Source: an uncultured Ruminococcus sp. | GTDB taxonomy: Bacteria; Bacillota; Clostridia; Oscillospirales; Ruminococcaceae | Direction: 5' to 3' | DNA length: 60,271 nt | Assembly: GCA_900315755.1 (NCBI GenBank) | Contig: ONAI01000002.1 | Coordinates: 1-60,271, forward strand | Part shown: piece by piece, positions 2,970-29,262 of the stretch | How the letters are laid out: each line of letters begins with the position of its first letter | Numbering within the stretch: the first letter of the stretch is position 1 | The notes under the pieces: model-generated | The model's input: only the letters and a program-made list of their open reading frames with translations | Told to the model about the DNA's origin: nothing | Database searches by the model: none | Made by a program: the position numbers and the translations under genes

Positions 2970-5036
2970 TTGGGAGAACATAGATTCTGTTATAGATGCA
3001 TGGAAAAGTATGATTCCGGTGTCAATGTATGTCCGCACTGTGGATATGACGACCGTACTCCGTCTGATCCGATGTATATAACTCCCGGTACGATACTCCA
3101 CGACAGATACCTTGTTGGCGTTCTGATCGAAAACAACGGTGAGGGCGCTTCATACGCAGGCTATGATATGTCAACGGAATGCAGGGTTCTGCTCAGAGAA
3201 TATATGCCAATAAGCCTCTGCACAAGAGTTAAGGATAAGGCAACTATCAGCGTTAATTACAACAACCTTGCAAAATACAAGGCTTTCATGGCTGAATATA
3301 CCGAGCTTAACAAGTCTCTTGCACGTCTGAGGAACGATTCAAATATCAATCCTGTGCTGGATATGTTTGCAGAGAATAATACGACCTATACAGTCTTTGA
3401 GCATATCGAAGGCGTTAAAATGCTCGATTATCTCAAGGAAAATGCAGGCGAACTCAGCTGGGAACAGGTATCACGTCTTTTCCCGCCGCTTTTTACTACT
3501 ATCGGCAGACTTCATAACGCAGGTATAATCCACCGCGCTATAAGTCCGGACACTGTTTATATGACCAATAAGGGCGAACTCAGACTTACCGGTTTCTGTA
3601 TCTCGCCTGTGAGAACGGCGAATGCCGGTCTTGAATATGAACTCTTCAAGGGCTATGCAGCCCCTGAACAGTATTCTGCAAGTATCAGCAGCAGACAGGG
3701 CTCGTGGACCGATGTTTACGGTATCTGTGCGCTTATATACCGCTCACTTACCGGATGTATGCCGGCTGATTCAACAAGCCGTCTGAACCACGATGATCTC
3801 TGCGAACCTCAGATGCTGAATGCACATATCCCGCAGCACGTTTCAAGAGTTATCATGGAAGGTATGAACCTCAATGTCCGCGATCGTATACAGACTATCA
3901 CAGAGCTCGTTACAAGACTCTTTGAACAGCCTCCTGTAATAAGAAACGCTGCACCTGTTCCGGAACAGCCGGTCAATAACGGCGGCTATAATCAGTATCC
4001 GCAGAACGCTGCGCCTGATATGTATCAGCAGCCTATGAACAATGTACCGGATATGTACCAGCAGCCGCAGTATCAGAACAATATCCCGCCTCAGGGCTAT
4101 AATAATTACCCATATCCGAACAACGGTTACTATGAAGAGGATGATTACCGCTACGAGAAGGTAAACACTGTTGACAGGATAAAGGTACCGATCATCATAG
4201 CTATACTTCTTATGGCTATCCTGATGATAATAATCGTTGTTATCTACAACATACTACATGATCCTACAAGAGATGACAATACTTCAAATAAGGCTGCAAC
4301 AACAGTTTCGGATAACGTTGTTTCAGGAACTACCGGTGCTTCAACTGAGGCTTCATCTGATGTTCAGGATACAGAAGTTCCTGTCCTTGTTGGAAAGTTC
4401 TACTCGCATGAAAAGGAAAAATGGAAGGATTACTTCAATCTTGATCCTACCTATGAGTATAATAACGATTACCCTGATAACGACATGATCTTCTATCAGG
4501 AAATAGATGCCGGAAATATGATAAGCAAAGGCGGCGTTATCAAGGTCAAGGTAAGCAAAGGACCTGAATCCTCTGTTATCCCTGATTATGCCGGACTCAC
4601 TGTTGCTCAGTATAAGAGCAAGCTCGAACAGGCTGGTATCTCGGATTTCAATTATCAGTTCCTGCCTGCAAATCTTTACTACGGCGTTCCTGATTCAGTA
4701 GTTGAGATACAGGTCGATGGAAAGAGAGTCGCTCCGGGCACTTACTTCAGCAATAAGGAAAATAAGAAGCTTACTGTTTATTACCTCGATGCAAATGCCC
4801 AGGTGTATAAAGAACCCGAAACACAGGCTGATTATGAGGAGCAGACAGAGGTTCAGCAGCAGGAATCTTCTACTGAAGTTAATCAGCAGCAGGATCCTCA
4901 GCAGCAACAGCAACAGCAACAGGATCCACAGCAGCAACAGCAACAGGATCCTCAGCAGCAACAGCAGCAGGACCCGCAGCAGCAACAGCAGCAGAACAAT
5001 GAAAACGATAATAATCCTGAATACGGCTGGCAATAA
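2970..5036 (+). CDS. Zinc-ribbon / Ser-Thr pseudokinase / PASTA membrane protein with Gln-rich tail
   Basis: A 688-aa protein with a TTG start behind AAGGAGG. Order: zinc ribbon (C7, C10, C21, C24); kinase-like domain about 45-320; Pro/Gln/Asn/Tyr linker; one membrane helix about 406-430; two PASTA-like repeats about 470-533 and 535-610; Gln-rich tail (DPQ with Gln runs) about 626-682. It keeps the fold signatures of a PASTA kinase (APEQY, WTDVYGI), but the catalytic loop reads HRAISPD (Asp to Ala190), DFG reads GFC (208-210), and the VAIK Lys position is Arg76. By family knowledge this is a pseudokinase, probably a scaffold or sensor linking cell-wall binding to a cytoplasmic partner. It is monocistronic, with its own promoter and terminator. 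Confidence 0.85.
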   Translation: MGEHRFCYRCMEKYDSGVNVCPHCGYDDRTPSDPMYITPGTILHDRYLVGVLIENNGEGASYAGYDMSTECRVLLREYMPISLCTRVKDKATISVNYNNLAKYKAFMAEYTELNKSLARLRNDSNINPVLDMFAENNTTYTVFEHIEGVKMLDYLKENAGELSWEQVSRLFPPLFTTIGRLHNAGIIHRAISPDTVYMTNKGELRLTGFCISPVRTANAGLEYELFKGYAAPEQYSASISSRQGSWTDVYGICALIYRSLTGCMPADSTSRLNHDDLCEPQMLNAHIPQHVSRVIMEGMNLNVRDRIQTITELVTRLFEQPPVIRNAAPVPEQPVNNGGYNQYPQNAAPDMYQQPMNNVPDMYQQPQYQNNIPPQGYNNYPYPNNGYYEEDDYRYEKVNTVDRIKVPIIIAILLMAILMIIIVVIYNILHDPTRDDNTSNKAATTVSDNVVSGTTGASTEASSDVQDTEVPVLVGKFYSHEKEKWKDYFNLDPTYEYNNDYPDNDMIFYQEIDAGNMISKGGVIKVKVSKGPESSVIPDYAGLTVAQYKSKLEQAGISDFNYQFLPANLYYGVPDSVVEIQVDGKRVAPGTYFSNKENKKLTVYYLDANAQVYKEPETQADYEEQTEVQQQESSTEVNQQQDPQQQQQQQQDPQQQQQQDPQQQQQQDPQQQQQQNNENDNNPEYGWQ

Positions 5037-24845: not shown

Positions 24846-25772
24846 ATGGGCATCTATAAGAAAATCACTGATATAATCGGAGGAACTCCTCTTCTTGAAC
24901 TTACAAATATCGAGAAAAAATACAATATCGAGGCAAAGATCGTTGCTAAGCTTGAATATTTCAATCCTGCTGGCAGTGTTAAGGACAGAATCGCTAAGGC
25001 TATGATAGATGATGCAGAGGCTAAGGGACTCCTTAAGCCCGGAAGTGTTATAATCGAGCCTACAAGCGGTAATACAGGTATCGGTCTTGCATCTGTTGCT
25101 GCATCAAGAGGTTACAGACTTATCATTTCAATGCCTGAGACTATGAGTATCGAGCGCAGAAATCTTATGAAGGCTTATGGCGCTGAACTCGTACTCACAG
25201 ATGGTTCAAAGGGCATGAAGGGAGCTATTGAAAAGGCTCAGCAGTTAGCTGAGGAGATTCCTGACAGCTATATTCCGTCACAGTTCACAAACCCTGCAAA
25301 TCCGGCTATCCACGAAAAGACAACCGGCGTTGAGATATGGGATGACACTAACGGTAATGTAGATATTTTCGTTGCCGGAGTTGGTACAGGCGGAACACTT
25401 AGCGGAACAGGTGCATATCTCAAGTCAAAGAACAAGGACATCAAGGTAGTTGCAGTTGAACCTAAGGGCTCACCAGTGCTTTCAGAGGGCACAGCAGGTC
25501 CTCACAAGATACAGGGCATTGGCGCTGGATTTGTTCCTGAAACCCTCAATACAGGTATATATGATGAGATCATCACAGTTGAGAACGAGGATGCTTTCAG
25601 CGTTGGCAGAGATATTGCACGTACTGAAGGTGTACTTGTAGGTATTTCATCTGGTGCGGCTGTATGGGCAGCACTTGAACTTGCAAAGCGCCCTGAGAAT
25701 AAAGGCAAGACCATTGTTGCACTTCTTCCTGATACAGGTGAGCGTTATCTTTCAACTCCAATGTTTGAATAA
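24846..25772 (+). CDS. cysK: Cysteine synthase (O-acetylserine sulfhydrylase)
   Basis: A 308-aa fold-type II PLP enzyme making cysteine from O-acetylserine and sulfide. The PLP lysine is K46 in [11 protein letters not shown]; the substrate loop is PTSGNTGIG near 70-80; the phosphate site is [11 protein letters not shown]; the C-terminal [11 protein letters not shown] is typical of CysK. RBS AAAGGAG. The gene is convergent with an Rrf2-family regulator, shares a terminator with it, and is preceded by the Cys-ending leader ORF. Confidence 0.96.
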
Positions 25773-25782
25773 AATATGTAAG

Positions 25783-25822
25783 AAACTCCGCAGCAGCTGA
25801 TATGCTGTCTGCGGAGTTTTTT
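25783..25822. terminator. Bidirectional terminator between cysK and rrf2
   Basis: AAACTCCGCAG (25783-25793) pairs with CTGCGGAGTTT (25809-25819), followed by TTTG on the plus strand. The rrf2 stop is only 2 bases beyond. Confidence 0.9.
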
Positions 25823-25823
25823 G

Positions 25824-26258
25824 TTATATACAGTAATCTCCGGAATCGGAGACGTTTTTGTCAATGACATCTTGTAAGGTTATTCCATTGAGGTAATCTG
25901 TAACGGTAGCGTATAACCCTTCCCATATGAACAGGGTAGAGCATTCCGCGGCTCTGGGACATTCGTTCGGCTCAAATTCAAGGCAAGCTACCGGAGCAAG
26001 ACTGCCTTCAGTAGCTCTCAGTACCTCACCGACAGAGCATTCAGATGGCTTATGTGTGAGCATATAGCCTCCGTGGTTACCGCGGTTGGTTTTAAGCAGA
26101 CCGCTTCTGTTCAGCAACGGTACGATCTGTTCGAGGTATTTTTTGGATATATTCTGGCGTTCAGCAATATCCTTCAGAGAGACGAACCCTTCTTCCTGGT
26201 GGAGCGCGAGGTCATACAGCATACGCAGAGCATATCTGCCTTTGGTTGAGATCTTCAT
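25824..26258 (-). CDS. Rrf2-family transcriptional regulator with three-Cys cluster motif
   Basis: A 144-aa Rrf2 regulator. The winged-helix N-terminus is canonical (MKISTKGRYALRMLYDLA, then ISKKYLEQI and NRGNHGGYML). The C-terminal third carries C92, C100 and C106 (ACLEFEPNEC...AEC), the spacing region where IscR/NsrR bind an Fe-S cluster; B. subtilis CymR lacks these. It therefore looks like an Fe-S or redox-sensing Rrf2 protein. Its convergence with cysK recalls the CymR-CysK pairing of Firmicutes (inference). RBS AAGGAG. A ~190-base leader with four hairpins precedes it. Confidence 0.9.
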   Translation of the reverse strand: MKISTKGRYALRMLYDLALHQEEGFVSLKDIAERQNISKKYLEQIVPLLNRSGLLKTNRGNHGGYMLTHKPSECSVGEVLRATEGSLAPVACLEFEPNECPRAAECSTLFIWEGLYATVTDYLNGITLQDVIDKNVSDSGDYCI

Positions 26259-26540: not shown

Positions 26541-26565
26541 GAAAAGCCGCAGCGGAAACTGCGGC
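26541..26565 (-). terminator. Intrinsic terminator of the pfl operon
   Basis: GCCGCAG (26565-26559 on the minus strand) pairs with CTGCGGC (26552-26546), followed by TTTTC. Confidence 0.85.
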
Positions 26566-26578
26566 GAAGTGAGGCTTA

Positions 26579-26818
26579 TCAAAGAGTTGAGTGGAATGTA
26601 CGCGATATAACGTCATCCTGCTGTTCTTTTGTCAGTTTTACGAAGTTTACTGCGTAACCGGATACTCTTATAGTCAGCTGCGGATACTTTTCAGGATGAG
26701 CCTGAGCATCAAGAAGAGTCTCACGGGTGAAAACGTTTACATTGAGGTGATGACCGCCTTTTTCAACATAGCCATCGAGAAGCTCTATAAGGTTGTCAAT
26801 TTGTTTCTGATTATCCAT
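26579..26818 (-). CDS. grcA: Stand-alone glycyl-radical subunit of pyruvate formate-lyase
   Basis: A 79-aa protein equal to the C-terminal glycyl-radical domain of pyruvate formate-lyase: [35 protein letters not shown] with the radical glycine at G54, and the closing [12 protein letters not shown]. Enterobacteria have a similar free protein (GrcA/YfiD) as a repair part for damaged full-length PFL. Here the upstream PFL gene lacks this domain, so this protein should be an obligatory subunit. It has its own strong RBS (AAAGGAG) and is the last gene of the operon. Confidence 0.92.
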
Positions 26819-26844
26819 ATTAATTCTCCTTTATCAATATTATA

Positions 26845-27054
26845 TCAGTCTTCCTCGGTTTCGAGTTCTGTTGGTTGGCAGCAAGCTCCTTTTACACCAC
26901 AGTCGGTGCTGTTTACGGTCTCAACAGTAAGGCTGCCGCCGTTTTCTTCGGGAAAGATGTTTACGTGACCAGTACCTTCAGACATCAGCTGGTCTATGAG
27001 ATCAGCAAGTTCTTCCGGCGAACTGGCAGTACCTTTGATGTTGGATTCAAGCAT
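26845..27054 (-). CDS. Cys-rich small protein between PFL subunits, possible degenerate glycyl-radical domain
   Basis: A 69-aa acidic protein whose ATG overlaps the PFL stop (TAATG) and which ends 26 bases before the glycyl-radical subunit. Its first half (ELADLIDQLMSEGTGHVNI) can be aligned by eye with the N-terminal part of the downstream subunit ([21 protein letters not shown]). The expected RVSGYAV radical loop is replaced by STDCGVKGACCQP, with three cysteines in nine residues. It may be a decayed duplicate, an assembly factor or a thiol/metal-binding partner. I know no family for it. Confidence 0.65.
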   Translation of the reverse strand: MLESNIKGTASSPEELADLIDQLMSEGTGHVNIFPEENGGSLTVETVNSTDCGVKGACCQPTELETEED

Positions 27055-29159
27055 TATTCTTCACCTTTGAGTTTATCAAGATCAAGATCGCCCATGAATA
27101 CGTCCATATCCTTACCGAGAGCATCAGGAATAATGGAGAATGTATTTGAGATACCGTCCTGAGCGTGTCTGAACGGAAGCTTTGCAACGGATGAAAGTGA
27201 AGCTACTGCGCCGTGAGTATCTCTTCCATGCATCGGGTTAGCTCCCGGAGCAAGCGGAACGCCCTGCTTGCGTCCGTCAGGAGTGTTGCCGGTCTTTTTA
27301 CCGTAAACAACGTTTGATGTGATAGTAAGGATAGACATTGTAGGAACGCCATCTCGGTAGGTGTGGTGCTTCTTGATCTTTTCCATGAACTGACGTACAA
27401 CAGTTACTGCAAGCTGATCGACACGGTCATCGTTGTTGCCGTATTTCGGAAAATCGCCCTCGATCTCGTAGTCAACAATAACGTTCTTGGCAACGTCGAT
27501 AACATTTCCTGCCTTGTCCTTGATCTCGATGTCCTTGCGGATAGGCTTTACCTTTGCATACTTGATAGCAGAGAGCGAATCTGCAACGACTGAAAGACCT
27601 GCGATACCTGTTGCAAAGTAACGCTTGACATCTCTGTCGTGGAGAGCCATCTGAAGTCTCTCATAGCTGTATTTATCGTGCATATAGTGGATAACATTAA
27701 GAGTGTTTACATAGAGACCTGCGAGCCACTCCATCATATCCATATACTTTTCCCATACATCGTTAAAGTCGAGGTATTCACTGTCTACCGGGCGGTACTT
27801 AGGTCCGACCTGAAGTCCGAGACGTTCATCAACACCGCCGTTTATAGCATAAAGGAGGCATTTTGCAAGATTTGCTCTTGCACCGAAGAACTGCATCTCC
27901 TTGCCGACTCTCATTGAGGATACACAGCAGGCGATAGCGTAGTCATCGCCGTGAACAACCCTCATCATGTCGTCGTTCTCATACTGGATAGAGGATGTTT
28001 TGATAGACATTTTAGCGCAGTATTCCTTGAACTTTCTCGGGAGCTTTGTTGACCAGAGGATAGTCATATTCGGTTCCGGAGCTGTTCCGAGGTTTTCGAG
28101 AGTGTGGAGATAACGGAAGCTGTTCTTTGTAACGAGGTGGTGACCGTCAACATCAACACCGCCGATTGATTCTGTGATCCATGTAGGATCGCCTGAGAAG
28201 AGCGAATTGTATTCAGGTGTACGTGCGAACTTTACGATACGCAGCTTCATGATGAAGTGGTCGATGAGCTCCTGAGCCTGTTCCTCAGTAATGAGACCGC
28301 GTTCAAGATCACGCTGGATGTATATATCAAGGAAGGTCGAGGTGCGTCCGAGGGACATTGCTGCGCCGTTCTGCTCCTTGACAGCTGCGAGGTAGCCGAA
28401 ATAGAGCCACTGTACAGCTTCCTTTGCATTAGCTGCCGGTTTGGAAATGTCAAATCCGTAGATCTCACCGAGCTTCTTGAGTTCCTCAAGAGCGCGTACC
28501 TGTTCAGCAAGCTCCTCACGCAGACGGATATTCTTGGAAGTCATTCTCACGAGAGAAGTATCGATCTGGTGCTTCTTATCCTGAATGAGGAGGTCGATAC
28601 CATAGAGAGCAACACGGCGGTAGTCGCCTATGATACGACCTCTGCCGTAAGCATCGGGCAGACCTGTAAGGATAGCGGAATGACGTGCGAGACGCATTTC
28701 TGGAGTATAGGCATCAAAAACGCCCTGATTGTGAGTTTTTCTGTATTTTGTGAAGATCTCAACAACGGAAGGATCAACTTCGTATCCGTACTCCTTACAA
28801 GCCTGCTGAGCCATTCTGATACCGCCGAAAGGCTGGAGAGCGCGCTTGAAGGGCTTGTCTGTCTGGAGACCGACGATCTGTTCGAGTTCCTTGTTGAGAT
28901 AGCCGGCACCATGAGAAGTAATAGTTGAGATAATTTTGGTATCCATATCGAGAACACCGCCGGCTTCACGTTCCTGTCTGGAGAGATCCATTACCTGATC
29001 CCAGAGCTTTTTAGTCGCGTCGGTAGGTCCTGCAAGGAAGCTTTCATCACCATCGTATGGAGTGTAATTCTTCTTGATGAAATCACGTACATTAACTGAA
29101 GTGTGATTCCAGCGTCCTTCATTGAATCCATCCCATTCTTTTGCCCAAGTGTTTATCAT
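27054..29159 (-). CDS. pflB: Pyruvate formate-lyase catalytic subunit lacking the glycyl-radical domain
   Basis: A 701-aa formate C-acetyltransferase (pyruvate + CoA to acetyl-CoA + formate). The catalytic Cys pair C411/C412 is in [13 protein letters not shown], and the N-terminus (WDGFNEGRW) and [12 protein letters not shown] match PFL throughout. The protein stops after [13 protein letters not shown], about 60 residues short of the usual 750-760 aa, exactly where the glycyl-radical domain should begin; that domain is encoded two genes downstream. No activating enzyme (pflA) is adjacent. RBS AAAGGAG. The promoter carries two inverted repeats. Confidence 0.94.
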
Positions 29160-29233: not shown

Positions 29234-29262
29234 ATAATATCACATTGACTAAAAAATGTCAA
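29234..29262 (-). promoter_or_regulatory. Promoter of the split pfl operon
   Basis: Minus strand: TTGACA (29262-29257), 17 bp, TATTAT (29239-29234). An inverted repeat ATTGAC-N8-GTCAAT (29244-29263) overlaps the -35 and half of the spacer. Confidence 0.8.

Follow-up and report, generated by a model that had tools for sequence, protein, structure and literature searches.

The genome of an uncultured Ruminococcus species (GenBank assembly GCA_900315755.1) carries a pyruvate formate-lyase (PFL) divided among three adjacent genes: a catalytic core without a glycyl-radical domain, a small middle gene and a separate gene for a 79-residue glycyl-radical subunit. The genes lie on the minus strand of contig ONAI01000002.1, within the 60,271-nucleotide stretch that was analyzed here as a whole and is called the window below. 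The three-gene split is real and conserved in the Ruminococcus flavefaciens group of rumen bacteria, and on the genomes searched it looks obligatory. With a probability of a little under 60%, we favor a reading in which the PFL is obligately split, its radical subunit is exchangeable and the middle protein acts as a Cys-bearing placeholder or loading element. The gene facts under this reading are firm, in that the split, the failure to find an intact PFL, the conservation and the paralogy of the middle gene are evident in the sequences, and from them we infer the functions.

The core gene (27054–29159) encodes 701 residues, including the catalytic Cys pair C411-C412 (codons at 27924–27929), which aligns with C418/C419 of the Escherichia coli enzyme (numbering as in the accessible text of PMC12338860); the helix, beta10 strand and radical loop of the glycyl-radical domain are absent. 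Against TIGR01255 (formate C-acetyltransferase), the core scored 1120.9 bits (cut-off, 994.2) over model positions 1–668 of 744. The 79-residue protein (26579–26818) covers positions 662–744, which is the part absent from the core, and jointly the two span the entire model. A PFL as defined by TIGR01255 holds the Cys pair and the radical Gly in one polypeptide; here the Gly is in a separate protein. Pfam PF01228 is likewise divided, with positions 2–50 in the core and 50–106 in the 79-residue protein. A preliminary description of the locus had the core keeping its Cys pair and ending exactly where the glycyl-radical domain starts. The Cys pair is present, and the end point can be refined: the cut falls inside PF01228, directly ahead of the helix–strand (beta10) unit that leads into the radical loop. 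The same description placed the radical domain, RVSGYAV, in a separate 79-residue gene two open reading frames (ORFs) downstream with its own ribosome-binding site, and this was borne out by the AAAGGAG found ahead of that gene. The presumed radical glycine is Gly54 within RVSGYAV (codon at 26657–26659), and the protein contains no Cys. It belongs to NCBIfam GrcA3 (NF038360; 167.2 bits, above the 158-bit cut-off) and scored below the cut-offs of the GrcA (TIGR04365; 98.1 bits, cut-off 170) and GrcA2 (106 bits, cut-off 145) models. Between these two genes, and sharing one base with the core ORF at the junction (TAATG), lies the middle gene (26845–27054), which encodes 69 residues of a degenerate glycyl-radical-domain paralogue with a Cys motif and an acidic tail.

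Based on profile searches, this genome (92% complete, 123 contigs) contains no second PFL core or glycyl-radical domain: PF02901 matched only this core and PF01228 only the two halves. The near-closed genome of a congener (G035; 3 contigs, 98% complete) gave the same picture, with PF01228 matches limited to the two halves and no intact pflB. A full PflA (303.5 bits) is encoded on another contig of the window's genome. A pyruvate:ferredoxin oxidoreductase gene is present as well (C46, 1718 bits), so PFL is not the sole route from pyruvate here. With no radical domain in the core and no second pflB turning up in either genome, the 79-residue protein appears to be a subunit and not a spare part. 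These results support the earlier proposal that the parent core lacks the domain and that the split is obligatory. Two checks on that proposal had been defined beforehand, namely a search for an intact second pflB and for a version of the locus in which the three frames join into one ORF; neither was found in this genome, and independent genomes show the same split.

We found the two partial PF01228 matches in 33 of 35 other Ruminococcus species, and the order core, middle, glycyl was kept in all 33 congeners having the system. No PF01228 match was obtained in the other two (G011, 96% complete; G022, 64% complete); in G011, the lack of any glycyl-radical domain match points to an apparent loss of PFL in one congener. 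One further PF01228 match occurred in 12 of the 33 split congeners. That of G028 (contig 12, 100.9 bits) falls in a protein that shares just 24% identity with the core, and the other eleven scored 20.7–31.1 bits, compared with 126–135 bits for the best fused PFLs in the same table. Identity between the congeners and the window was 77–95% for the core, 85–97% for the glycyl subunit and 53.6–74.5% for the middle protein (best aligned segment).

To this we added a scan of a genome collection for named loci, which found 140 relatives, 80 of which were kept. The glycyl gene lay downstream of the middle gene in all 80 and the core upstream in 79, the remaining locus (L129) being broken off by a contig end. 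Isolates with the three-gene form include FD-1, ATCC 19208, 007c, MC2020, ND2009, MA2007, YAD2003, YL228, SAb67, XPD3002, YRD2003 and Y1. The closest named locus was from a Ruminococcus flavefaciens metagenome-assembled genome (MAG), SIG534 (SVNH01000016.1), with 100% identity in the middle and glycyl proteins and 98.7% in the core. Its presence in 33 of 35 congeners, and in ATCC 19208 and other isolates, shows that the split is neither an assembly error nor a relic. All three genes had low median ratios of nonsynonymous to synonymous substitution rates (dN/dS): 0.035 for the core (47 orthologue comparisons), 0.023 for the glycyl gene (39 of 59 comparisons not saturated) and 0.125 for the middle gene (12 of 59 not saturated). 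Conservation, selection and the overlap with the core stop together rule out the middle ORF being spurious. Two MAGs each hold two differing copies of the operon (L130 and L148 in UBA1190; L112 and L131 in Tb.RUG.491), which may reflect strain mixture or duplication.

The preliminary description had counted the middle ORF as part of the split and had missed both its conservation and its derivation from the glycyl-radical domain. No Pfam or NCBIfam model matched the middle protein up to an E value of 1. Using hhalign, a profile of 36 middle proteins matched the glycyl profile with a score of 28.9 over 27 columns (best of 100 column shuffles, 13.4), and a profile of 56 middle proteins reached 37.3 (E = 7.7e-7; maximum of 200 column shuffles, 15.2). 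In hidden Markov model (HMM) cross-searches, each run over the ORFs of one locus, the middle-gene HMM recovered the glycyl protein in 19 of the 19 loci holding one and in 16 of 16 in a second set (best E = 1.7e-8). Common to both proteins is a helix followed by a GHVNI / HHLNV strand ahead of the radical loop; according to hhalign, the middle-gene part that resembles this N-terminal helix and beta10 strand is PEELADLIDQLMSEGTGHVNIFP (26950–27018). The RVSGYA loop and the C-terminal helix are absent from the window's middle protein and its aligned homologues, which rules out a glycyl subunit with an altered loop. Judging from these profile comparisons, the middle protein and the glycyl subunit are paralogues, the former degenerate: it keeps the helix and beta-strand and lacks the RVSGYA loop.

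An AlphaFold model of the middle protein, weak at a predicted local distance difference test (pLDDT) score of 65, has a helix at residues 13–25 and strands at 30–35 and 42–47. Foldseek returned no match to this model at E ≤ 0.001, and only chance-level matches came from sequence searches of the PDB with two middle proteins and of PHROGs with one. All 56 middle proteins contain at least two Cys (two in 17, three in 34 and four in 5), and the common pattern C...AC..P holds in all but three of them. The window protein has three, arranged as C52-x5-C58-C59-QPT (26878–26901). We considered whether a middle Cys sits exactly at the position of the radical Gly. The distance from beta10 to the radical Gly is 27 residues in all 14 glycyl sequences measured, and that from beta10 to the second Cys is 25–27 residues in 38 of the 56 middle proteins and 20–33 in the other 18, which makes an exact correspondence a weak proposition.

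Beyond the genus, we searched samples of the order (295 genomes), the family (297 genomes) and the phylum (398 genomes). GrcA3 scored above its cut-off in 20 genomes of the order sample, every one a free ORF. Sixteen of these 20 genomes lack an operon middle gene, and each of the 16 has a core with a terminal Cys tail, typically DCxxGACxxPTLFEGLD. In the family sample, GrcA3 was found at E ≤ 1e-41 in 58 genomes (55 free, 3 fused), and the middle gene was present in 41, in the operon in 39 and unlinked in 2 (G822 and G894). A free glycyl gene with no middle gene found was seen in 14 family genomes; 12 of the core tails had at least two Cys and 2 had none, and the core–glycyl gap of 6–140 bases is too short for a middle gene, although a diverged, unlinked copy could escape the profile. 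Only two genomes of the phylum sample scored above the GrcA3 cut-off, our own included; the other (G549) lies outside the order and has the three-gene form.

Taken together, tail Cys occurred in none of 71 cores with an operon middle gene, and at least two tail Cys occurred in 28 of 31 cores without one. A 72nd core (L044) was left out of this count because a run of unknown bases makes its tail unreadable. Tail Cys were also missing from both cores whose genome has the middle gene unlinked. The raw Fisher P value for complementarity between tail and middle gene was 4.7e-22, a figure that ignores relatedness. The Cys patterns of the tails vary (CxCC, CC, CxxC and Cx4C), and one middle protein (L187) and one core tail (L053) have the stretch ACSSPTLFEGLD in common. 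The three fused PFLs of the family GrcA3 scan are in genomes without a middle-gene match. Because core-tail Cys are found mostly where the middle gene is absent and fused PFLs come without a middle-gene match, the middle element seems tied to the split state. In a tree of 63 cores, the two-gene Cys-tail forms (16 rows) made up one clade (100/100) and the three-gene forms needed 3 changes; in a quick tree of 88 rows, which took in 7 of the 34 genus rows and 10 fused PFLs, Cys tails changed 6 times and middle-gene presence 6 times. At the level of sequence, complementarity of tail and middle gene thus holds in the rows examined, with few independent evolutionary contrasts behind it.

Some side observations came from the same surveys. 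Three fused PFLs (L072, L073 and L241) are nested in the split radiation and are possible re-fusions, with unsure placement (95/0 for L072/L073; long branches). In Subdoligranulum variabile (L202), an unannotated three-gene split PFL is found on a 100-kb record labelled as a plasmid, a label that may be an assembly matter. In both genomes with an unlinked middle gene (L208 = G822 and L220 = G894, genus g511), that gene lies near what by eye is a dCMP/cytidine deaminase-like gene, and the core and glycyl genes remain together, without a Cys tail. Among phages, 1538 records match the glycyl-radical subunit, with domains free or fused; the closest (up to 82%) are a few short fecal fragments that may be bacterial DNA.

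Biochemistry on the E. coli enzyme bears on what a core cut in this way may need. According to the accessible text of one study, the free radical subunit YfiD restores cleaved PFL, and a core cut at residue 695 showed no binding of YfiD detectable by isothermal titration calorimetry and yielded 32-fold less radical than a core kept to residue 733, with cut-core complexes working normally once activated (PMC8683613). The authors proposed residues 696–733, beta10 included, as the recognition element (PMC8683613). The R. flavefaciens core is naturally cut near E. coli residue 695, and therefore something may be needed for efficient docking.

From these elements we infer how the enzyme is assembled, how the radical part is exchanged, where the middle protein docks and what its thiols do. 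The core would hold the active site and the Cys pair, with the radical on the separate glycyl subunit, so that damage by O2 could be made good by swapping a cleaved subunit for a new one, with no need to remake the core. The middle protein retains the helix and the beta10 strand, which close the barrel of PFL, and carries cysteines in place of the radical loop that would come next. Most likely it docks on the core at the site of beta10 while the glycyl subunit is missing, serving as a placeholder or as a loading element. Its thiols, brought next to the active site, may keep the catalytic Cys pair reduced or return it to that state, or may guide the incoming subunit. In relatives without the middle gene, this task probably falls, in cis, to the Cys-bearing tail of the core. 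A narrower version, which we offer tentatively and think somewhat unlikely, is that the middle protein is a stand-in that sits in the empty core where the glycyl domain would be, protects the Cys pair or reduces it again after exposure to O2, and then gives way to a fresh glycyl subunit. If that were true, every worn part of the enzyme would be renewable, with the stand-in role filled by a separate protein or by the Cys tail of the core.

Several observations weigh against a placeholder or loading function. At E ≤ 1e-3, the glycyl HMM recovered the middle protein in no more than 11 of 20 loci (best E = 4.1e-7) and in 6 of 18 in the second set, the structure model of the core was unusable (pLDDT 44) and that of the middle protein was weak, and the number and spacing of Cys vary among middle proteins. 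The complementarity between tail and middle gene comes down to 4 independent pairs on the starred (well-supported) branches of the tree, or 6 on all branches; the tail goes opposite to the middle gene in 2.9 of them on average and the same way in 0, and the sign test is not significant. Split PFLs that lack both the middle gene and the Cys tail occur in Collinsella (L201) and two family genomes (L231 and L238), and two genomes of genus g511 carry the middle gene away from the other two. In the E. coli work, as far as the accessible text goes, removal of the 60-residue N-terminus from YfiD improved the result with the cut core (2.7 versus 0.5 µM radical; the longer core with full YfiD gave 15.9 µM) (PMC8683613). 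The 79-residue subunit resembles this short form, and a docking helper may therefore not be needed. Even so, the middle protein, with its helix and beta10 strand, no radical loop and a place in the same operon, makes a good candidate for a trans-acting placeholder or loading element, and its cysteines hint at a further role for thiols.

Two other explanations accept the split and differ over the middle protein. It could be an accessory Cys-rich subunit of the type found in benzylsuccinate synthase or 4-hydroxyphenylacetate decarboxylase, binding a metal or Fe-S cluster and regulating the opening of the glycyl domain for PflA. BssB and BssC of benzylsuccinate synthase and HpdC are small accessory subunits of glycyl radical enzymes and are in part Cys-bearing; to our knowledge, they do not derive from a glycyl domain. 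The cysteines shared by all 56 middle proteins and by most core tails lacking a middle gene would suit such a role, and other glycyl radical enzymes have been solved with accessory subunits (titles of 4pkf and 9o8u). The mark of the BssB/HpdC type of Fe-S subunit would be a four-Cys cluster site, beside which the window protein has 3 Cys and its homologues 2–4. However, with only 2–4 Cys per middle protein and variable spacing and tail patterns, no single metal site is defined, and the folded part of the protein resembles the glycyl subunit itself. We judge this explanation unlikely. The split could also be a neutral gene fission without advantage, the middle gene being a duplication remnant kept for core folding or stability only. 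It does evolve faster than its neighbors (dN/dS of about 0.125) and is absent from some split PFLs, and in the E. coli system the short free radical subunit partly activates the cut core unaided (PMC8683613, accessible text). Retention of the middle gene under purifying selection in all 80 named loci, its persistence in two genomes where it is unlinked, and the Cys tail in 28 of 31 cores without it all speak against neutrality, which strikes us as rather improbable.

The remaining two explanations deny an obligate split. If the 79-residue protein were an ordinary GrcA/YfiD spare part, as the family name ‘autonomous glycyl radical cofactor GrcA3’ would have it, an intact PFL should exist elsewhere and the local core should be a relic; yet no intact PFL was found in this genome or in the near-closed congener, the core is under strong purifying selection, and the GrcA and GrcA2 models score below cut-off, making this very improbable. 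A sequencing or assembly error in frames that are truly one ORF might be suspected because the window appears to be part of a MAG. We regard it as extremely improbable, given that the same arrangement is seen in all 80 named loci kept, isolates included, that the intergenic gaps vary in length and that the genes have their own ribosome-binding sites.

Compared with E. coli PFL (PDB 2pfl/1h16), the core is about 60% identical in aligned columns, and the Cys pair and RVSGYAV are the same; the differences are that the radical domain is here a separate gene product and that a third gene stands in between. GrcA/YfiD of E. coli and Y06I of phage T4 are also free radical subunits that complete a PFL without its own, beta10 included (accessible text of PMC8683613). 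YfiD, however, rescues a damaged intact PFL and has a 60-residue disordered N-terminus, whereas no intact PFL was found here. In NCBI annotation the small gene goes by grcA3 (‘autonomous glycyl radical cofactor GrcA3’), a name that implies an autonomous cofactor, whereas in this genome the 79-residue protein is the only radical domain found. An annotated parallel in arrangement is pflB-grcA3 of Collinsella aerofaciens (L201), in which grcA3 likewise follows a core without a radical domain; unlike the window locus, this two-gene form lacks both a Cys tail and a middle gene in the operon. A GC-rich inverted repeat, GCGCCGG...CCGGCGC, lies between its two genes, somewhere from 4555 to 4641; acting as an attenuating hairpin, it could set how much radical subunit is made relative to core.

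In the PDB, the best matches of the core were 38la and 38lb (‘Formate acetyltransferase’, 687 and 739 residues), solved PFL chains without a glycyl-radical domain, with a cut that may be natural or engineered. Both were absent from the PDB search with the 79-residue protein. Neither was among the matches in a structure set ending 2026-04-08, and a structural study of a PFL without its radical domain therefore probably exists. The two middle proteins searched against the PDB matched no chain beyond chance level. Since the free subunit has its own curated NCBI family, the arrangement has already been noticed in annotation, and the split itself may be known to specialists. Our literature search, which had most subscription papers and all preprints outside its scope, found no paper on a split PFL and no description of a middle subunit derived from the glycyl domain or of its trade-off with a core Cys tail.

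Among enzymes that O2 destroys, PFL, which is central to fermentation, has been studied best. A naturally occurring form that carries the radical on its own subunit would permit direct measurement of the docking, activation and replacement of the radical domain, questions that one study approached with engineered truncations and YfiD (PMC8683613, accessible text). For annotation, a gene named ‘autonomous glycyl radical cofactor’ can, in anaerobes of the rumen and gut, turn out to encode an obligate subunit. Having no Pfam or NCBIfam match, the middle gene suggests that PFL assembly or repair includes a step with no counterpart known to us.

Consensus scans of the window give a layout that fits a single transcript of the three genes, as the preliminary description had proposed. 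On the minus strand, a sigma-70-like promoter site (TTGACA-17-TATTAT with TG, 11/12 matches) lies upstream of the core gene at 29234–29262, an intrinsic-terminator-like hairpin, GCCGCAGTTTCCGCTGCGGC then TTTTCTTTT, follows directly after the glycyl gene at 26546–26565, and the scan reported no minus-strand terminator-like site between the three genes. These are consensus matches only, and a weaker promoter-like site (26837–26810) overlaps the start of the glycyl gene. Across the window, the scan gave 11 promoter-like sites against 6.3 in shuffles and 3 terminator-like sites against 2.1. The next genes (24846–26258), named by eye from their translations, are an Rrf2-type regulator on the minus strand and a cysteine synthase-like gene on the plus strand.

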